Shown: positions 9,383 through 18,318 of the stretch, piece after piece | How positions within the stretch are numbered: position 1 is the stretch's first letter | How the letters are laid out: each line of letters starts with the position of its first letter | Made by a program: the position numbers and the translations under genes | The notes under the pieces: generated by a model | Seen by the model: the letters and a program-made list of their open reading frames with translations, nothing else | Told to the model about the DNA's origin: nothing | Databases searched by the model: none | Origin: an uncultured Desulfotomaculum sp. | GTDB lineage: Bacteria > Bacillota > Desulfotomaculia > Desulfotomaculales > Desulfotomaculaceae | Reading direction: 5' to 3' | Assembly: GCA_946411205.1 (NCBI GenBank) | Contig: CAMKDG010000029.1 | Span: forward strand, 1-34,041 | Length of the DNA: 34,041 nucleotides

Positions 9383-10309
9383 ATGAAAAGAAATAAGATA
9401 ACTATTGTCGGTGCAGGAAATGTTGGGGCAACCTGTGCCCACTGGGCTGCTGCTAAAGAATTGGGAGATATTGTCCTGATTGATGTGGCAGAAGGCATTC
9501 CCCAAGGAAAAGCGTTGGATTTAATGGAAGCTGCTCCTGTGGAGGGCTATGACAGTATTATTATTGGTACCAATGATTTTGCTGACACGGCGAACTCCGA
9601 TGTGGTGGTTATTACCGCTGGTATGGCTCGTAAGCCTGGCATGAGCCGTGATGATCTTTTAAACATTAATGCGGGGATTGTGCGTAATGTTACCGAGCAA
9701 GTGGTAAAATACTCACCCAATGCCTATTTGTTAGTGGTAACCAACCCAGTGGATGTTAGTGCTTACATAGCTTACAAGGCCAGTGGTTTCCCAGCTAACC
9801 GGGTCTTTGGTTTATCCGGTGTCTTAGATTCTGCCCGTTTCCGTACCTTTATTGCCAGGGAGTTAAATGTATCCTTTGAAGACGTAACTTCCTTTGTGTT
9901 GGGCGGCCATGGTGATGATATGGTACCGATGGTCCGCTACACCTATGTGGGTGGTATCCCGGTGGAAAAACTAATTCCTGCCGATCGCCTGTCTGCTATG
10001 GTTGACCGTGCTAGAAAGGGTGGGGCTGAAATTGTCAACTACCTGAAAACAGGCAGTGCTTACTACGCCCCCAGTGCTTCGGTTATGCAAATGGCGGAAT
10101 GTATCTTGAAGGATAAAAAACGTATTCTGCCTGTATCGGCTTATCTGCAAGGTGAATATGGCGAAAATGATGTATTTTCCGGTGTTCCCGCTATTATCGG
10201 CGGTAACGGGGTGGAAAAAATTATTGAATTAGATTTGGATGAAACAGAAATGTCTGCTTTACGTAACTCGATCAATTCAGTAAGAACCAACATGGCCAAA
10301 ATCGGTTAA
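9383..10309 (+). CDS. mdh: Malate dehydrogenase (NAD, LDH-like)
   Basis: Interconverts malate and oxaloacetate. The Rossmann motif GAGNVG (10-15) is followed by the substrate loop [11 protein letters not shown], whose arginines bind the dicarboxylate and mark malate rather than lactate specificity. VVTNPVD and the catalytic GGHGDDMVP histidine are present. Length is 308 aa, typical of the LDH-like MDH group, with an AGGAGG site before the ATG. It is the last gene of the sdhCAB-mdh unit and is followed by a clear terminator. Confidence 0.96.
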
Positions 10310-10335
10310 TCAAAGAGCAGATAATTTATTAAAGA

Positions 10336-10367
10336 AAGCTTACGGTTAAACAACTGTAAGCTTTTTT
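10336..10367 (+). terminator. Rho-independent terminator after mdh
   Basis: AAGCTTACGGTT / AACTGTAAGCTT stem with a 4-nt loop, followed by TTTT. It ends the sdhCAB-mdh operon. Confidence 0.9.
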
Positions 10368-10444
10368 ACACCTGGCAACAGTTTGGCTTATTGGCATTGC
10401 TTTTATGGGTTTTTATTTGTTTGATATCGAAATATACACAGTTC

Positions 10445-10453
10445 TGGTATAAT
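10445..10453 (+). promoter_or_regulatory. Extended -10 promoter for first PSE transporter
   Basis: TGGTATAAT, a perfect -10 with TGN extension, lies about 45 nt before the start codon. There is no strong -35 at 17 nt. Confidence 0.6.
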
Positions 10454-10497
10454 ATAGTATGAGAAATATGGACATCAATAATTTATAGGAGAGCTAG

Positions 10498-11628
10498 ATG
10501 ACCTATTCCAATAAGCCGTCAGTCTTGATTAAGACTATCCCCGGTATTCTGCTGATGTTTGCCATTGCTGTACTAACGATGGGTGGTCAGGACCTCGGTA
10601 TACCTTGGCCAGGATTAGAATCCTATCTGAAATTAAACCCTATGACGAAGACCTTGTTTATTGATGCACTTCGTTTAAACTATATCTTGCTTAGTATTCT
10701 AATCGGCATGTTAATTGGGAACCTATTTACACTGCCGAATTGGATTATGGCAGGTGTGTCGACATCCAGGTTATTCATTAAATTAGGGGTTATTTTATTA
10801 GGTTCCTTATACAGCCTGGCAGATGTGGCCAAACTGGGTTTTACAGCGATTCTTTTAATCACCTCCTTTGTCATTTTAACCTTGCTTTTTACTTTGTGGC
10901 TAGGGAAACGTGCCGGGATGGATCCAGCCTCTGCTGCGGTATTATCTGCCGGTACAGCTGTGTGTGGGGTATCTGCCATAGTAGCTACTGCTCCTGCAGT
11001 CAGAGCGAAAACAACCGATGTGGTTTTTTCCATTGCGACTATTCTTACCTACGGAGTGGTGTCGATCTTTTTATTTCCTTTTATCGGCCACCTCTTAGAA
11101 TTAAGTCCCCACCAATTTGGGGTATGGTCTGGGACAGGAATTTTGAGTTCAGGACAGGTTTTAGCGGTTTGCCTCATTTATGATCCAGGGACGGCTAATC
11201 ATGCATCGGTAAGCCTGAAGACCGGTGAAATTTATAACTTAGCCAGGGTAGTGTTTCTACCCTTTGTGGTACTTGGTTTGGCAGCCATAACCAGCCGCAC
11301 GGCTCAGCTACCAGACGATGAAATAAACGTTCATACAGGTTTAGCCAGTAAATTTCCGATTTTTGTGCTTGGCTTTTTAGCCATGGTATTTTTAACTTCG
11401 TTGGGATTTTTCGGCCAAGCTTCTCCACCCTCACAGGAGTTAATTACCATTCGTAAACTCTACAACTGGTTCTTTGCCATCGGCCTAACGGGATTGGGAA
11501 TGCAAATATCCTTTTCAGAATTAACCCGGGCAGGGGGCAAGCCCTTGTTAGTAGGTTCAGCGGCAGCCCTTTTTAAAGCCATTTTGGCGCTCATTGTTGT
11601 ATTTTTACTAATACCAGAGAATCCGTAA
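10498..11628 (+). CDS. PSE/YeiH-family membrane transporter (UPF0324), copy 1
   Basis: Polytopic protein of 376 aa with about ten hydrophobic helices. The conserved blocks SAGTAVCGVSAIVATAPAVRAK and GILSSGQVLAVCLIYD match the 'putative sulfate exporter' (PSE) family. Family members are linked to sulfite/sulfate or other anion export, but the substrate is unproven and cannot be read here. The ATG has AGGAGAG 4 nt upstream. A second family member lies at 16435-17508; the two share the AVCGVSA / SICGVSA core but differ in length and in the loop before the last helices. A small membrane protein gene follows after 12 nt, so the two are probably co-translated. Confidence 0.85.
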   Translation: MTYSNKPSVLIKTIPGILLMFAIAVLTMGGQDLGIPWPGLESYLKLNPMTKTLFIDALRLNYILLSILIGMLIGNLFTLPNWIMAGVSTSRLFIKLGVILLGSLYSLADVAKLGFTAILLITSFVILTLLFTLWLGKRAGMDPASAAVLSAGTAVCGVSAIVATAPAVRAKTTDVVFSIATILTYGVVSIFLFPFIGHLLELSPHQFGVWSGTGILSSGQVLAVCLIYDPGTANHASVSLKTGEIYNLARVVFLPFVVLGLAAITSRTAQLPDDEINVHTGLASKFPIFVLGFLAMVFLTSLGFFGQASPPSQELITIRKLYNWFFAIGLTGLGMQISFSELTRAGGKPLLVGSAAALFKAILALIVVFLLIPENP

Positions 11629-11640
11629 GGTGATGATAAT

Positions 11641-11805
11641 GTGCAGACTGATAAGTTGAAAAGTAGCAAATTGAGAAGAAAAAGACCAGCAAGGGACCAT
11701 GAGCCGAGGCTTTTTTCCCCTTTTGTTACGGAGCGAATGGAAGATTATGCGGCCTTGTCTTTAGCCACCTTAATCATTATTATGGTGTTAGTTATTCACC
11801 AATAA
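11641..11805 (+). CDS. Small single-pass membrane protein (54 aa) paired with PSE transporter 1
   Basis: Not in the ORF track because it is short. It starts at a GTG at 11641, 5 nt after AAGGTGATG, and ends at TAA 11805. The first 32 residues are very basic and polar (KLKSSKLRRKRPARDHEPR). ERMEDYAALSL and a C-terminal hydrophobic helix (ATLIIIMVLVI) follow. It overlaps nothing and is followed directly by a terminator. The 40-aa protein after the second PSE gene has the same plan and the same D-Y-x-x-(L/I)-S-L junction, which supports it being real. No function is known; an accessory subunit of the transporter is the inference. Confidence 0.7.
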   Translation: MQTDKLKSSKLRRKRPARDHEPRLFSPFVTERMEDYAALSLATLIIIMVLVIHQ

Positions 11806-11810
11806 AACAA

Positions 11811-11842
11811 AAATCCTTACCAGCTGCGGTAAGGATTTATTT
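11811..11842. terminator. Bidirectional terminator
   Basis: AAATCCTTACC / GGTAAGGATTT stem with a 6-nt loop, then ATTTTTA on the plus strand and a U-rich stretch on the minus strand. It separates the convergent small membrane protein gene and the kinase-less sensor gene. Confidence 0.88.
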
Positions 11843-13300
11843 TTATATTAGGGGAGTATCACTAAGGATGTAAACAACCGTCCCTACGTAAATACCATCC
11901 TCATCATGTACCGGGGTAATCTCACAGGAAAGGCCAGTTGAAAGAGTAACCCTTTTGACAGAGTAAGAATCAATATTCTTGTAAATAAAATCTGCCAGCT
12001 CTCGGTCCACCACCTCGATACCGGTACCTTTAATTAAGTTGGTAAAGAAACATTTGGCCATAAGATTAGCATGGGAAATTTCGTGCTGTTTATTAACAAA
12101 AATGATTCCTTGGGGAATGCTCTCGAAGACCTTATCCATAATAGGGGCGATACTGTTGTCACCATCGTCTTTATTTCTGATTACCGTAAGGGAACCTAAG
12201 ATCTTATTATGTTTGATAATCGGCGAGTGGATGGCCTTTAATAATTTATCAGATAACTTTAAAGAGAAGGATGAGGAACCATAATGTTCTTTTTGTAAAT
12301 CAAGGTTTCCTAGAATTTCCTTAAGCCGGACATTTCTTAACAGACTTTTTCTATCTGCAAACATGCGGTGGGCAGTTTCATTGGCAAACAAAATGCGTCC
12401 GGAATTATTAGCGATCATGACCCCTTCATTAAGTTGATTAAAGATGGCAAAATCAATGTTTTCAAAATAGGTTTTAGCGGTATTAACCCCCCAGTACTCC
12501 ACCAGTAGTTCATATAGGCAGACGTACAAAGCGAAAACCAGCAGGAGGATGGTGAGGGCGCGAAATATTTCGATATTGTTAGCTTTGAAGAAAAAATAGA
12601 CTTGCCAAATGTTATTTTCGGTTTGTACCGAAAGCACATTGTATCGTTTGTTATCATAAACAAAACTCTCTTGATTGAGGCTAAGCTTACTCAGTTGTTT
12701 GTCTTCAAAGGGCCAGACAACGGCATTTCCGTCATGATCAAAAACAGCAACAACGTAGTTTTTACTGAGGAATTCTTGTAATATTTCATTTTGAAAGTTT
12801 TCCAAATGAAAATCGATAGCCAAAACTCTATTGTCAAGAACTTGCAAAGGTGTTAGCACGGTAACTACTTTATTTTTCGATAGACTATCCAGGTGTACCG
12901 GAGATAGGAGAGTAGTGTAGCCCTTTAGGTTTGCTACTTCCTGCACCATAGAGCGACTGATGCCAGGTTCACTATTGGTGGTAGCAAGCATGTTTCCTTC
13001 CTTATCGAGCAGATACACATCTTTGACGAGAGGATTCATTTGCACACTAGCTACAAATTGGTTTATATTTTCTGGTTTTTCCAGGTCGATTTTTTTTGCT
13101 GTATCAACACTAAGGCTTTTTATTTCGTTCAGAAATTGGTTTGTGTTATATAAAGCAATTTGTTGAATGCCAGCCTCATATTGAGTAATTAAATCTTTGG
13201 TATGACGAAATTCCATGATGGCAAAAACTAAGAAAATACTAATTAGAAATACCGTAAAAAAACTAGGGAAGAAAGTTCGGATTAAGGGGAATTGTTTCAT
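11843..13300 (-). CDS. Membrane Cache-PAS-PAS sensor protein lacking a kinase domain
   Basis: 485 aa. An N-terminal membrane helix (about 10-28) is followed by a roughly 220-residue extracytoplasmic region of Cache type (NPLVKDVYLLDKEGNMLATT), then a second membrane helix (about 250-271). Two cytoplasmic PAS domains follow (QLNEGVMIANNSGRILFANE; SIPQGIIFVNKQHEISHAN). The protein ends inside or just after the second PAS with no His-kinase, GGDEF or methyl-accepting domain, and a terminator follows, so this looks like its natural end. GGAGGAAGCTCA precedes the ATG. It is the third gene of an operon with a NarX-like kinase and its regulator, 19 nt after the regulator stop, suggesting an accessory ligand sensor that acts on the kinase. 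The ligand is unknown. Confidence 0.75.
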   Translation of the reverse strand: MKQFPLIRTFFPSFFTVFLISIFLVFAIMEFRHTKDLITQYEAGIQQIALYNTNQFLNEIKSLSVDTAKKIDLEKPENINQFVASVQMNPLVKDVYLLDKEGNMLATTNSEPGISRSMVQEVANLKGYTTLLSPVHLDSLSKNKVVTVLTPLQVLDNRVLAIDFHLENFQNEILQEFLSKNYVVAVFDHDGNAVVWPFEDKQLSKLSLNQESFVYDNKRYNVLSVQTENNIWQVYFFFKANNIEIFRALTILLLVFALYVCLYELLVEYWGVNTAKTYFENIDFAIFNQLNEGVMIANNSGRILFANETAHRMFADRKSLLRNVRLKEILGNLDLQKEHYGSSSFSLKLSDKLLKAIHSPIIKHNKILGSLTVIRNKDDGDNSIAPIMDKVFESIPQGIIFVNKQHEISHANLMAKCFFTNLIKGTGIEVVDRELADFIYKNIDSYSVKRVTLSTGLSCEITPVHDEDGIYVGTVVYILSDTPLI

Positions 13301-13319
13301 TGAGCTTCCTCCGAAAAGT

Positions 13320-13934
13320 TTACTTAATAATGCCTCGTTTTACTGCAATAGTAAGGGCCTCCTCAACAGAGTGAACATTTAACTTAGTAAAAATATCCCT
13401 TAATCTTCTGCGAAAGGTAGAAAGGCTCATATACAAGTCTGCAGCAATTTCTTTTTGATTTTTACCACTGGCTAATAATGATAGAATACTCATTTCTTTT
13501 TCAGATAAGCCGGAATCTGAAAGATGTAGCAGAGTTTCTGTATTTAAACCGGGGTATAGATAGGAACTACCACGGTTTGTCATCAGTACCGCGGATTTTA
13601 TTTCATCAAAGAACGCATATTTGGGGACAAATCCTTTAACGCCGCACTCCATAGCTTTCTTAATAAAAACAGGATCATCATAGGTGGTGAGGGCTACATG
13701 TTTAATGGTGGGATATTTATTCTTGATTTGCACAGCTAAATCGAGACCATCCCCATCGGGTAACCCAATATCCAGCAAAATTACATCAATATCCGAAGTA
13801 AGCTTGGCCAGGGCTTCTTGGCAAGATCCTGCCTCAGCCACCACGGTCATATTATTTTCCAGTTCCAGAAGTTGCTTAAGTCCCTGGCGGAAGACGTTAT
13901 GATCCTCAATTAACATAATCTTGATTTTCTCCAT
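13320..13934 (-). CDS. NarL/LuxR-type response regulator
   Basis: 204 aa when started at M-E-K-I-K-I-M-L-I-E-D-H, which has AGGAGG 8 nt upstream; the ORF track adds 27 residues. The receiver domain has the acidic pair in IEDH and the phosphoacceptor Asp in VILLDIGLPDGDG. A LuxR-type helix-turn-helix (SEKEMSILSLLASGKNQKEIAADLYMSLSTFRRRL) is C-terminal. Its start lies 29 nt inside the end of the kinase gene, indicating coupled translation. The kinase is its likely partner. Targets are unknown; the flanking transporter genes and the dyads before the kinase gene are candidates. Confidence 0.92.
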   Translation of the reverse strand: MEKIKIMLIEDHNVFRQGLKQLLELENNMTVVAEAGSCQEALAKLTSDIDVILLDIGLPDGDGLDLAVQIKNKYPTIKHVALTTYDDPVFIKKAMECGVKGFVPKYAFFDEIKSAVLMTNRGSSYLYPGLNTETLLHLSDSGLSEKEMSILSLLASGKNQKEIAADLYMSLSTFRRRLRDIFTKLNVHSVEEALTIAVKRGIIK

Positions 13935-15537
13935 CTGGTTTACCTCCTGGTAGAATAGGTACAGTAAGAGTAACACAAAATCCTGTTTCACAGTGCCCAA
14001 AGTGAATCTCAGCACCGATTAGACCAGCCCGCTCTTTCATACCCCAGAGTCCCTTGCCGGCCATAAAATCCCCCTGGGTTTCTCCGTTGTCGATTACCTC
14101 AATAATCATAGTCTCATTCTCTAAGGTAAAATTAATATCGACTTCCGTGGCTTTAGCATGTTTGACGATATTACTGAGAGCTTCCTGGATAATTCTATAA
14201 ATGATAATCTCATCTTTCTTTTTTATGCTTAAAGCACGATCCTGGTAGAAAATAAAAACTCTAATTTTATTTAGTTTTTCAAAGGTCGGGATATAGGATT
14301 CTAAAGCAGAAATTAAACCTACTTTATCAATCAGATAGGGGTGAATATCATTCATAATGCCCCGCATTTCGATGGCTGCATTTTGACAGTGGCTTCGCAG
14401 ATCGGACAGCCTTTGGATCAGCTCGTCGCCTTTTAAATCTCCGTTTTGATGCAATTTTAAAGTGAAGTCTAGGGAGTGAATAATGGTAGACATATATCTG
14501 GCAATCCAATCGTGAATTTCAATGGAAATTCTCTTTCTTTCTTTCTCCAAGGTATCTAACAAAAGGGGTTTGTCCTTTTGATCAGTGGCCGGTCTGGCCA
14601 TTAATAAGGCACCGATTAATCGATTCATAAAAAAGACGGGAATATAATCCACGGCTAATTCTAGCGGACGCCCATCTTTATAAAGCGTTACCCTTGCTTT
14701 GAGTTGTTCTTCTTGATACAGCAAAGCATGAAATAGCGGTTGGGTAATCCTTTGTAGATGGGGAAACTGTTCTGGAAACTTATCTATATTTTTATCCAGT
14801 ATCGCCTCTGGGAATAATTCAAATAAATCCTGGGCTGCTTTGTTTAAATCCTTTACAACACCTGTGGTGTTGATAAAAAGAAGGGAGGTTGTTGTATTAC
14901 GAAAGCAATAATTTAAATACACCCCTTTCTGAATGGCAGGCTTAAACATCAAGTATAACACAGGAGGTAGTAGTAGCAGGGCAGAGATTAAGCCAAAAAG
15001 CACAATATATTTTAGCTGATTACTAGTACTATTAATTTCCCCAGAAAAAACATGTATTTCTTGCTGATAAGATTTTAAGAGCATATTGACTTTATTCCGA
15101 AGACTATTGGTATATTCTTCGTTTTCCTTAAATAAAGCAGCACCTTCGTTAACGTTACCTTGATTCATTAAGATTTTACTTTCTACAAAAGATAAATAGG
15201 CTTGATAGGTTTCAATAAGTTCTAAAACTTTTTTATTTCGTTCAGGATTCTCAGGATCGTAGAGACCGGCTTCATTCGTAAGCCAGCTGGAGCCAGTCTG
15301 ATAGTAATTTTTTAACTGTTGCTGATCTTGAAAAAGAAGATAATCGCCCAAGCTGCCACTTGTTTGATCTAAGTGAAAAATAAATTGATTTAATTGGGCA
15401 ATACGCTCTTGATTCTGTTGGAAGGCATTAATTTGTCGATCCGTCTGACGAATATTTTTTAACAAAAATAAGCAGCAAGCGATTGATAGTACAACCAGGA
15501 TGATGGATATAGTTAGATATTTTTTATTAATTGTCAT
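13906..15537 (-). CDS. NarX/DegS-type sensor histidine kinase
   Basis: 543 aa from M-T-I-N-K-K-Y; the ORF track start at 15579 adds 14 residues without a good ribosome site. A membrane helix near the N-terminus, a helical extracytoplasmic region of about 160 residues (four-helix-bundle or CHASE3-like), a second helix (YIVLFGLISALLLLPPVLYL) and a PAS-like domain come first. A HisKA_3 dimerisation domain with the phospho-His in RISIEIHDWIARYMS and an HATPase domain (QEALSNIVKHAKA, VIDNGE, GLWGMKERA) follow. This class pairs with NarL-type regulators, and the gene overlaps the regulator. The sensed signal cannot be told. Confidence 0.9.
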   Translation of the reverse strand: MTINKKYLTISIILVVLSIACCLFLLKNIRQTDRQINAFQQNQERIAQLNQFIFHLDQTSGSLGDYLLFQDQQQLKNYYQTGSSWLTNEAGLYDPENPERNKKVLELIETYQAYLSFVESKILMNQGNVNEGAALFKENEEYTNSLRNKVNMLLKSYQQEIHVFSGEINSTSNQLKYIVLFGLISALLLLPPVLYLMFKPAIQKGVYLNYCFRNTTTSLLFINTTGVVKDLNKAAQDLFELFPEAILDKNIDKFPEQFPHLQRITQPLFHALLYQEEQLKARVTLYKDGRPLELAVDYIPVFFMNRLIGALLMARPATDQKDKPLLLDTLEKERKRISIEIHDWIARYMSTIIHSLDFTLKLHQNGDLKGDELIQRLSDLRSHCQNAAIEMRGIMNDIHPYLIDKVGLISALESYIPTFEKLNKIRVFIFYQDRALSIKKKDEIIIYRIIQEALSNIVKHAKATEVDINFTLENETMIIEVIDNGETQGDFMAGKGLWGMKERAGLIGAEIHFGHCETGFCVTLTVPILPGGKPDGENQDYVN

Positions 15538-15650
15538 TTTATCCCGTCCATTTTGGCAATTTATCCCTTCGTATAGCATGTCTTTATGCTGTTGTTTCGA
15601 CAGAGTAATACCGGAATCCTTTTGGCTGCTGACAAGGATTGCTTGGTTAA

Positions 15651-15730
15651 GTGTATTTCAGAAGACATAATACACGTCTTATGAAATACACAATAAAGAT
15701 CGGTAAACTGACACAAAAGTGTCATCCGAT
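15651..15730 (-). promoter_or_regulatory. Two large dyads upstream of the kinase operon
   Basis: Dyad 1 (15651-15691): GTGTATTTCA / TGAAATACAC, with an inner AAGAC / GTCTT. Its loop also carries AATACAC, so GTGTATT could pair with either copy. Dyad 2 (15699-15730): ATCGG..TGACAC-AAAA-GTGTCA.CCGAT. They lie 115-195 bp before the kinase start, either as operators in DNA or as leader RNA stems. No U-run follows on either strand, so they are not standard terminators. Confidence 0.5.
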
Positions 15731-15881
15731 GAGTACTTACGTTCATAGTCTTCCTTGATTATTGATTATTATTTTGGAAAATATTAAGATTCTAGTAACG
15801 TCATAGCTGGTGCAGAACAGATTGTGCAAGTGAATACAAGCAAGAACAAATATTAGGAGCTGATTAGGAGTTGATAGCGTA

Positions 15882-16343
15882 GTGTTTAAACACAACGTCT
15901 CACAACCTAAAAAGGAAAAGCTTGTCAAATGGTATGGTTGGATTATTATTCTTTTATTGTGTGTGACTCCTTTAGTAATTATCATCCTGCCTAAACTAAT
16001 GCTTAATGTTGGTAGAATAAACAAAATACTGAGAGAATCTCAAATACCAGAGACTGATAGCATAAATGGCGAGGTATTGGAAGTGCAATGGAATAGGACA
16101 GTTGATGGAGATATAATCTGCATTGAAGGTCAAGTGTTGATCGATACAAAGGAACGGGGTCAGATTAATACTGTTTTCCGTAAATATGTAGGATCTAAGT
16201 ATAACGAAACAATTGATATCTCACTCAAAGATCCCGTGGAGTTGACTGGTAAATATGAAGATGATAGTTTCTTAATCCGCAGTATTCTTAACCTAAAGAC
16301 TAAAGAGATTCATGATACAGCACCTTTAGTTTCAGTATATTAA
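15882..16343 (+). CDS. Unknown membrane-anchored protein
   Basis: 153 aa from a GTG at 15882 with TTAGGAG about 11 nt upstream, a rather long spacing. A short basic N-terminus (KKEKLVKWYG) leads into one hydrophobic helix (WIIILLLCVTPLVIIILP). An outer domain of about 115 residues follows, rich in beta-prone segments (DGDIICIEGQVLIDTKERGQ; EDDSFLIRSILNLKTKEIHD). I do not recognise the family. It lies 91 nt before the second PSE transporter on the same strand, with no terminator between, so it may belong to that transcription unit. Codon use and length make it a probable real gene. Confidence 0.65.
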   Translation: MFKHNVSQPKKEKLVKWYGWIIILLLCVTPLVIIILPKLMLNVGRINKILRESQIPETDSINGEVLEVQWNRTVDGDIICIEGQVLIDTKERGQINTVFRKYVGSKYNETIDISLKDPVELTGKYEDDSFLIRSILNLKTKEIHDTAPLVSVY

Positions 16344-16434
16344 TACTTTATTATCTGGAGGGAGGAGAGAACAAACATAAAATTAACTAACTAACCAGCA
16401 AAAAGGGAAGACAAAAAATGGAGGTGTATTGATC

Positions 16435-17508
16435 TTGGCACAAACACAAGTTGGTCAGGTCAAAAGTCAAAGCATTAGTGAACAGTTTATTAAAGCAATT
16501 CCCGGCCTAATTTTGGTAGTATTATTAGCAGTGGCGGCGATGTGGGGTGAGGGATACCTGAAAGCTAACCACAAAGCATTTTTTGAAGCAACCCTTTTAA
16601 ACCATATCCTATTAGCAATTATCTTTGGTATGATTATTCGTAACACCATGGGTGTTCCTTCCGTATTAGAACCCGGTCTTAAGTATTCTACCATTTTAAC
16701 CAAGACAGGTATTGTTATCATGGGTACCAAATATACCTTAGCCTCTTTAGTTAAGGTAGGTACTGTAAGTATGATCTTTATTACGATTGCTTTGTTTGCG
16801 ACTGTTATGTTGACTTTCTGGCTCCGCAAACGTTATGAAATGTCAGATTCTTTAGCAGGTTGCTTAGCAGCTGGCTTCTCTATCTGTGGTGTATCTGCCA
16901 CTGTAGCCACTGGTCCGGCAGTAAAAGCGAAAGGCCAGGAAATGGCTTACACCATTGCTACCATCTTAATCTTTGGTTTGATCGCTTTATTTACCTTCCC
17001 TGCTTTAGGTAAATTAATGGGCTTAACTCAAAACCAGTTTGGTGCTTGGGTTGGGGTAGGTATCGTTAACTCTGCTCAGGTTCTGGCTGCTGGTATGGCG
17101 TATGGTCATGATGCAGGTTTAATGGCTGGTATCTATAACATGGGTCGTGTTGTATTACTGCCCTTTGTTGTACTGTATGTAGTTATGTTAGTGCTGAAAA
17201 GCGATACTCAAGCGACTAGCAGCATCAACAAATCTCAGTTTATTTTGGATAAATTCCCGGTATTCGTACTGGCCTTCTTAGTTGCAGTTTTAGCGAACAC
17301 TGCTGGTCTCTTTAGCAAAGAAGAAGTAAAGTTTGCTGGTGAAACCATGAACTGGTGCTTTGCGTTAGGTTTTGCGAGCATTGGTTTGACCACGAAATTC
17401 TCCGATATGAAAGCAGCAGGTAAAGACGGTATTATCTTAGGCTTTATAGTAGGTGCCATTAAGGCTGTAATCGCTCTGCTGATCGTAAAATATCTGCTTC
17501 CCTTTTAG
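16435..17508 (+). CDS. PSE/YeiH-family membrane transporter (UPF0324), copy 2
   Basis: 357 aa, about ten membrane helices. Family blocks AAGFSICGVSATVATGPAVKAK, GIVNSAQVLAAGMAYG and YNMGRVVLLPFVVLYV are present. The track start (TTG 16429) is only 2 nt from the ribosome site; the TTG at 16435 lies 8 nt after GGAGGTG and is preferred. Clean codon bias (many TTA, GGT, GCT codons) suggests good expression. It is paralogous to the transporter at 10498. The substrate is unknown; a sulfur oxyanion is the family guess. A 40-aa membrane protein gene follows 41 nt downstream. Confidence 0.87.
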   Translation: MAQTQVGQVKSQSISEQFIKAIPGLILVVLLAVAAMWGEGYLKANHKAFFEATLLNHILLAIIFGMIIRNTMGVPSVLEPGLKYSTILTKTGIVIMGTKYTLASLVKVGTVSMIFITIALFATVMLTFWLRKRYEMSDSLAGCLAAGFSICGVSATVATGPAVKAKGQEMAYTIATILIFGLIALFTFPALGKLMGLTQNQFGAWVGVGIVNSAQVLAAGMAYGHDAGLMAGIYNMGRVVLLPFVVLYVVMLVLKSDTQATSSINKSQFILDKFPVFVLAFLVAVLANTAGLFSKEEVKFAGETMNWCFALGFASIGLTTKFSDMKAAGKDGIILGFIVGAIKAVIALLIVKYLLPF

Positions 17509-17549
17509 GTAGTTGACAGGTTGGAATATAAAAGTGGAGGTGCTTCTAA

Positions 17550-17672
17550 ATGACTGAAAAAAATAGCGCACTTGATGAACAAAGAGCTGCTGACCGTAAG
17601 GTTAGAAAGCAAGACTATATGGTTATTTCTTTAGGTATAGTATTGTTGCTTGTAGCTAAAATAATGGCTTAA
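17550..17672 (+). CDS. Small single-pass membrane protein (40 aa) paired with PSE transporter 2
   Basis: Missed by the ORF track. ATG 17550 with GTGGAGGTG 7 nt upstream; TAA ends at 17672. The polar, charged N-terminus (TEKNSALDEQRAADRKVRK) is followed by QDYMVISLGIVLLLVAKIMA, a single membrane helix. The helix entry D-Y-M-V-I-S-L matches D-Y-A-A-L-S-L of the 54-aa protein after PSE copy 1. Same position, same architecture and a strong ribosome site support a real partner peptide. The function is unknown. Confidence 0.75.
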   Translation: MTEKNSALDEQRAADRKVRKQDYMVISLGIVLLLVAKIMA

Positions 17673-17694
17673 ATTAGAATTTTCCCAGAAACGG

Positions 17695-17723
17695 CAGGGT
17701 AGGTTAAATTTTAACCTACCCTG
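17695..17723 (+). terminator. Hairpin after second PSE unit
   Basis: CAGGGTAGGTTAAA / TTTAACCTACCCTG, a 14-bp near-perfect palindrome followed by a modestly T-rich stretch (ATACTATCTTT). It is probably a terminator although the U-run is weak. Confidence 0.65.
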
Positions 17724-17789
17724 TCATACTATCTTTACACTTGCAAAAAGTATCAAATTTCTCAGGTGAGAGTGGGAGGAGGAGGCTCT

Positions 17790-18233
17790 TTGTATAAAAA
17801 CATTTTAATTGCAGTACATGGAGAAGAAAAGGAGAACTTTTCAATAGAGCTTACCGAATGTATTAAGCTGATCAAGCCTAACGTAACAATACTTCATGTT
17901 TCTGAAACAGGTCTTGACCATTATGGTTATGTGGATCAACTGGCCAGTGCAATTACCAAGGATCAATTCATTCAATACATTCATGATATGGCCAATGCCA
18001 AACAAAAAGAGGTATATGATTATTTTAGTAAGCTGACCAATACTCTTGAAATTAAAATGGAATGGAAGGTGCGGGATGGCAAACCTGCGGACGTAATTGC
18101 CGCTGAGATAAGACAAGGCAGCTACGATTTATTAATTCTCGGGACAAAACCCAAGGCCCCGGGTAATACATCTAGCAGAGTCAAAGAAAAGGTAATTGCG
18201 GAGGGAAAGTGTTCGCTGCTAATTATAAAATAA
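17790..18233 (+). CDS. Universal stress protein (UspA family)
   Basis: 147 aa from a TTG at 17790 (Y-K-N-I-L-I-A-V-H-G), with a GGAGGAGG run just upstream; the track start at 17766 lies before that run. The fold signature is clear: an N-terminal NILIAVHG strand, DVIAAEIRQGSYDLLILGTK in the middle and CSLLIIK at the end. The usual nucleotide-binding G-x2-G-x9-G-(S/T) loop is degraded (GTKPKAPGNTSSRVKE), so it may not bind ATP. It stands alone behind a hairpin; its role in stress or energy limitation is the family inference only. Confidence 0.85.
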   Translation: MYKNILIAVHGEEKENFSIELTECIKLIKPNVTILHVSETGLDHYGYVDQLASAITKDQFIQYIHDMANAKQKEVYDYFSKLTNTLEIKMEWKVRDGKPADVIAAEIRQGSYDLLILGTKPKAPGNTSSRVKEKVIAEGKCSLLIIK

Positions 18234-18290
18234 ATTTGTCATTTTAAAGAGATTAACTTTGTCAAATGTTTTAATATTCTGTTAAATGTC

Positions 18291-18318
18291 TTGTGTAGAA
18301 ATTTTTCTATGCTAAAAT
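18291..18318 (+). promoter_or_regulatory. Sigma-A-like promoter
   Basis: TTGTGT, a 16-nt spacer and TAAAAT with TGC extension (TGCTAAAAT), about 35 nt before the small membrane protein gene. Confidence 0.55.

Follow-up and report, generated by a model that had tools for sequence, protein, structure and literature searches.

Small one-helix proteins tied genetically to one branch of the PSE transporter family

Two PSE genes and the small genes that follow them

The window analysed here, a 34,041-nucleotide (nt) stretch of contig CAMKDG010000029.1 (assembly GCA_946411205.1) deposited as an uncultured Desulfotomaculum sp., comes from a close relative of D. aeronauticus within Desulforamulus (99% identity in PSE-A). 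It carries two genes encoding transporters of the PSE family, PSE-A and PSE-B, each followed by a small open reading frame (ORF), here designated partner A and partner B (Table 1). Both ORFs are present as described in the original prediction, with gaps of 12 and 41 nt from the PSE stop codon and predicted products of 54 and 40 amino acids (aa), each combining a charged N-terminus with a single C-terminal hydrophobic membrane helix. The strong ribosome sites that had been predicted for both were recovered for partner B (GGAGGTG) but not for partner A, where an AGGTGA site beside the PSE-A stop codon, together with a GTG start, is moderate. Since a hairpin lies immediately 3' of each small ORF, each PSE gene appears to form a unit of two genes with the small gene next to it.

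Both transporters score far above the Pfam gathering cut-off for PF03601 (196.5 and 213.2 bits, cut-off 24.5). The label YeiH/PSE under which they had been introduced is appropriate in its second half, but not in its first: with 121.6 and 142.7 bits, both proteins remain below the curated cut-off (232.6) of the YeiH subfamily TIGR00698, and both are also placed outside the YeiH-like clade in the PSE tree discussed below. Partners A and B match no Pfam or NCBIfam model, OadG models included, at E values up to 10. The Pfam and NCBIfam matches of their relatives are either at chance level or limited to biotin/lipoyl domains, the small-protein profiles yield chance matches only against PDB sequences, and in our literature searches the partner was nowhere described as a family.

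PF03601 was searched for in 100 related genomes, and the DNA 3' of each PSE gene was read for small genes. Three such genes recur: type A after relatives of PSE-A, type B after relatives of PSE-B, and type C after some very long PSEs. A credible Pfam or NCBIfam match is lacking for all three, type C included. Partner A fits type A in its F-x-x-[DE]-R-x-E-D motif, its single C-terminal helix and its PSE-adjacent gene, and partner B fits type B in its R-[KR]-Q-D-Y motif, its single C-terminal helix and the location of its gene 3' of PSE-B. In a first alignment of type-A proteins only the E-D pair was invariant, F, R and A being almost invariant; in a cross-phylum alignment F, E and D are invariant within the F-x-x-[DE]-[RK]-x-E-D motif, which is followed by one helix. 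The invariant residues of type B are D15, K17, R19, Q21, D22, G29, L32 and K37 (P0002 numbering). The D-Y-x-x-(L/I)-S-L junction originally proposed as common to the two ORFs is thus not the conserved core, which the alignments locate in E-D for type A and in the set running from D15 to K37 for type B.

Among Desulforamulus and near relatives, the proportion of nonsynonymous differences (pN) in type A is 0.22-0.42, far below a proportion of synonymous differences (pS) of at least 0.75, while the ratio of nonsynonymous to synonymous substitution rates (dN/dS) in type B is 0.07-0.12 where dS is unsaturated. The presence of a conserved small ORF after the PSE genes of relatives speaks strongly against a refutation of the original prediction. 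Both small ORFs are real, conserved genes under purifying selection, and types A and B make up a genuine family of one-helix proteins, apparently without a name so far, that is tied genetically to one PSE branch. Among the remaining features of the region (Table 1), the hairpin next to partner A is terminator-like on the - strand as well.

Table 1. Features of the window around the two PSE genes.
Feature	Position	Strand	Evidence
PSE-A, PF03601 transporter, 376 aa	10498..11628	+	Pfam PF03601, E=6e-58
Partner A, 54 aa, GTG start, motif FVTERMEDY, one C-terminal helix	11641..11805	+	Own-genome profile, E=2.5e-19
Terminator-like hairpin with T-run, immediately 3' of partner A	11811..11838	+	-15 kcal/mol, z -4.8
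Regulator block separating the two PSE units	11843..15537	-	Pfam
Cache/PAS protein	11843-13300	-	Pfam
Response regulator (LuxR-type)	13320-13931	-	Pfam
Histidine kinase	13906-15537	-	Pfam
153-aa protein, N-terminal membrane helix, just 5' of PSE-B	15882-16343		No Pfam match
PSE-B, PF03601 transporter, 359 aa counted from the listed TTG	16429..17508	+	Pfam PF03601, E=5e-63
Partner B, 40 aa, ATG start, motif VRKQDY, one C-terminal helix	17550..17672	+	Own-genome profile, E=3.5e-22
Strong hairpin without T-run, immediately 3' of partner B	17693..17725	+	-24.6 kcal/mol, z -6.8
Universal stress protein (USP), usual third gene of the cassette	17766..18233	+	Pfam PF00582, E=2e-7

Linkage of the small genes to the transporters

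A PSE-A profile search using one genome per species yielded 79 named loci with 81 PSE-A genes, 80 of which have a type-A gene directly 3' at a median gap of 15 nt (two of these 80 type-A genes escaped the pattern search and were recognised on reading the loci). Soon 3' of the 81st PSE-A gene (L078) an IS110-type transposase-like sequence begins and reaches the contig end, and in the same organism (G046) a type-A gene adjoins IS110-type sequence of the same kind on another contig (loci L188 and L046 represent the two contigs). This last pair has apparently been split by an IS110-type element, the join between the contigs not being assembled. Hosts of type A include Desulforamulus, Desulfofundulus, Desulfotruncus, Moorella and Desulfosporosinus in the Bacillota and, in the Proteobacteria, Desulfovibrio-like and other deltaproteobacteria as well as beta- and gammaproteobacteria, with Sulfuricella, Gallionella and Thiodictyon as named genera. 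Run against the 100 whole genomes, the type-A profile produced 41 matches, comprising 39 directly 3' of a PSE gene, one directly 5' and the insertion case above; chance does not account for this placement. Nine of 300 genomes sampled from the phylum score, all within the order of the window, and 10 genomes of other lineages give one match each, or two where two PSEs occur.

Type B follows 15 of 15 intact PSE-B genes. Besides these 15, its profile identifies three further genes: one at a contig start, where a USP comes next; one after a shortened, apparently broken PSE-B, where the helix of the partner is degraded too (G039, L183); and one orphan, weighed below, which has YeeE/YedE-like transporter genes nearby on the opposite strand (G049). 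The obligate partnership put forward in the original prediction is upheld by these counts (80 of 81 for type A, all 15 for type B), but as genetic linkage only.

Sorting of 153 non-redundant PSEs by pattern assigned a separate small gene to 121 of them (69 type A, 27 type A with an additional domain, 15 type B, 3 upstream and 7 type C); the remainder comprises 19 with a fused helix only, 11 YeiH-like PSEs, one cut at the locus end and the insertion case. The partner precedes the PSE gene in one small PSE clade, and the linkage thus outlasts a change in gene order. Long PSEs bear the motif E-D-[WY]-W in a fused N-terminal helix and have no type-A or type-B gene, the two arrangements co-occurring in none of the 153 PSEs. 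Canonical YeiH-like PSEs have no partner gene, and the idea of a partner in all PSEs was rejected on these grounds. What had been proposed for the PSE family at large stands for one branch, but not for the YeiH-like PSEs or for the long PSEs with their fused helix.

In a tree of 103 PSEs, the A, B and upstream-partner sequences group together (Shimodaira-Hasegawa-like approximate likelihood-ratio test, SH-aLRT, 96) in a clade whose every member has a partner, with YeiH-like and long PSEs outside it, in what is a quick tree carrying a long-branch warning and uncertain deep joins. The group labels need 7 changes on this tree, the minimum possible, whereas shuffled labels average 53.5. The original prediction had regarded the occurrence at both paralogues as independent, which is doubtful with PSE-A and PSE-B in a single partnered clade (SH-aLRT 96); inheritance through co-duplication is simpler, since all members of that clade are partnered. 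We set independent origin aside as the less simple reading given the tree, and both paralogues probably inherited their partner by co-duplication. The prediction is partly supported: its core idea stands once narrowed to one PSE branch and relieved of its independence argument.

Domain-fused partners, fused helices and type C

The type-A peptide of the Desulfovibrio-like and other deltaproteobacteria runs on into a biotin/lipoyl-like domain, reaching a total of mostly 123-135 aa, and Pfam Biotin_lipoyl_2 matches were obtained for these domain-fused partners (L104, L106, L109, L111, L114, L130 and others). The A-M-K-M biotinylation motif is missing from 13 of 13 aligned domain-fused partners; all 13 sequences keep two adjacent lysines (K79 and K80 in the numbering of the L109 partner). 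That the small ORFs might be spurious, or encode leader peptides or small toxins, is suggested by their being short and hydrophobic, but is scarcely credible given that in 27 non-redundant loci they occur joined to a domain, that their motif is conserved across phyla despite saturated synonymous change, that the small gene is nearly always 3' and not 5' of the PSE gene, and that an Rfam scan of positions 10200-18300 matched no family. Cross-phylum conservation by itself already refutes the spurious-ORF explanation.

The fused helix of the long PSEs tops a 62-window PSE profile scan for type A (28.4, the next unrelated window scoring 20.8) and, separately, the same scan for type B (21.7 versus 14.1). 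These matches are suggestive, short of proof, of homology between the small partners and the N-terminal helix of long PSEs. Type-C peptides ('EEWYDLLPIEKKLI...') showed no similarity to type A in a profile comparison, and five of the seven PSEs followed by type C also have the fused helix. The window genome contains a third PSE (L003; G000:C91:3114-4052) that is long (about 500 aa), has an E-D-W-W helix fused at its N-terminus and is followed by a 57-aa type-C one-helix protein ('EEWFELQPIEKKLI...') unlike A and B.

A probable accessory subunit and its known counterparts

A USP gene lies near the PSE gene in 49 of the 79 loci, in the Proteobacteria usually right 3' of the small gene, and the Cache/PAS, response regulator and histidine kinase block is kept beside PSE-A in 19-23 loci. 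This block may serve the two transporters as their own sensor. The aprA gene is a marker of dissimilatory sulfur metabolism. It scores over its cut-off in 35 of 38 genomes with partner A versus 33 of 62 without (Fisher p 5e-5, inflated by shared ancestry), and the three partner-A genomes short of the cut-off comprise two that are 72% complete and one with only contig-edge fragments.

We consider it probable that the small ORFs encode accessory one-helix subunits of one PSE branch. Each partner would cross the membrane with one helix, have a charged N-terminus that is probably cytoplasmic, and place an acidic E/Q-D pair at the edge of the membrane; its helix would probably pack on the PSE scaffold domain and be needed for PSE assembly, stability or gating. 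Long PSEs would have a similar helix built into their own N-terminus, the Desulfovibrio-like subunit would add a biotin/lipoyl-like domain that is probably not cytoplasmic, and a USP would often complete the cassette. A PSE expressed alone may therefore be an incomplete transporter in this branch, and the missing piece can now be named as a separate gene in the A and B clades, possibly built in for the long PSEs.

The partner could conversely belong to the PSE pathway without binding the transporter, serving as an anchor or sensor for the USP or for the Desulfovibrio-like biotin/lipoyl-like domain, in line with the USP often found directly 3' of the small gene and with the existence of domain-fused partners. 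This is very unlikely, in that many forms barely exceed one helix (several type-B rows have 30-40 aa) and offer few contact residues, the match between the helix and long PSEs points at the transporter, and 30 of the 79 loci, some cut by contig ends, have no called USP.

Published genetics for Desulfovibrio vulgaris Hildenborough describe an operon, DVU0542-DVU0545, encoding a USP, a PSE (DVU0543), a 133-aa protein with one transmembrane helix (DVU0544) and a second USP (PMC10102598). On molybdate, DVU0542 and the kinase DVU0540 are important for this organism, while disruption of DVU0543, DVU0544 or DVU0545 raises fitness; DVU0544 was given neither family nor role in that study (PMC10102598). 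The order in related genera is PSE, partner, USP, often beside a divergent pair of kinase and NtrC-type regulator, and we infer DVU0544 to be the D. vulgaris partner, a likely ortholog. The accessory-subunit interpretation also points to a function for proteins of the DVU0544 type in a model sulfate reducer for which mutants exist.

An inhibitory role is frequent among small one-helix proteins (PMC10710835), and the partner might accordingly be a small regulator, inhibiting or destabilising its PSE under some condition as MgtR and SgrT do, and not a constitutive subunit. Loss of an inhibitor should, however, oppose loss of the transporter, and the effects of losing DVU0543 and DVU0544 have the same sign. 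The small gene moreover shares the unit of its PSE (short gaps, hairpin after), so that production of the PSE would always bring an inhibitor with it, and the similar helix fused to long PSEs suggests permanent association. We regard conditional inhibition as unlikely.

Salmonella YeiH confers sulfite resistance (PMC12880088). The substrate of the transporter studied here may be a sulfur oxyanion (sulfate or sulfite), molybdate then acting as its analogue. A bolder proposal, rather unlikely, is that PSE, partner and USP form a three-part transport complex of sulfur-cycling bacteria, in which the partner would be a detachable scaffold helix (holding the biotin/lipoyl-like domain of the Desulfovibrio-like forms on the outer side of the membrane) and the USP would gate the complex via nucleotide binding. 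If true, such a complex would represent a new architecture for sulfur-oxyanion transport.

Several observations weigh against an accessory subunit of a sulfur-oxyanion transporter. The PSE operons of D. vulgaris are co-regulated with lactate genes (PMC3333781, PMC4641369), and given these shared regulators a carboxylate substrate fits equally. The published mutant data agree with a subunit role but concern DVU0544, a likely ortholog. Structure prediction gives docking no support. With the PSE-A TAA codon and the 12-nt gap in frame with partner A, the two could be folded as a single read-through chain (33 joined rows in the alignment), with a mean predicted local distance difference test (pLDDT) score of 81 and a predicted template-modelling (pTM) score of 0.79; the partner helix, following a disordered linker, reached 85-94 in the joined chain and 87-97 when folded alone (residues 27-53). 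The helix is as confident alone as joined, and docking through the read-through fold was dropped as a line of argument. A sequence search for a solved PSE structure found none, the nearest PDB fold, weakly matched, being CitS of the 2HCT family (best E 0.008), in agreement with PMC8396727. Finally, one apparently intact type-B gene has no PSE nearby (G049, L182:2652-2759), and the small proteins resemble the helix of long PSEs modestly, with match probabilities of 82% for type A and 45% for type B.

Among known systems, OadG is the small one-helix gamma subunit of the sodium-pumping oxaloacetate decarboxylase, found beside OadB. The partners are likewise small one-helix proteins beside a membrane protein of the CPA/AT superfamily, to which OAD_beta and PSE have both been assigned (PMC8396727), and biotin-type domains appear in both systems. 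Unlike OadG, the partners match no Pfam OadG model, their biotin/lipoyl-like domain is fused to the partner itself and is without the usual biotin motif, nor were any decarboxylase genes noticed in the PSE cassette. Proteins of the AcrZ, MgtS and SgrT type, of about 30-50 aa, bind a transporter, and several are one-helix membrane proteins (PMC10710835); their transporters belong to other families, whereas the PSE partner gene is transporter-linked across phyla and has fused versions.

The PSE_2 form of the transporter has 11 helices, two of them extra N-terminal ones (PMC8396727), and judging from their N-terminal extension we infer that the long PSEs are PSE_2. The small proteins find their best profile match in the first helix of the long PSEs, but the partner, unlike the extra helices of PSE_2, is encoded by a separate gene, usually 3' of the PSE gene. 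DVU0544 resembles the partners in coming after a PSE and before a USP, near a kinase/regulator pair, and in a length shared with the partners of related genera.

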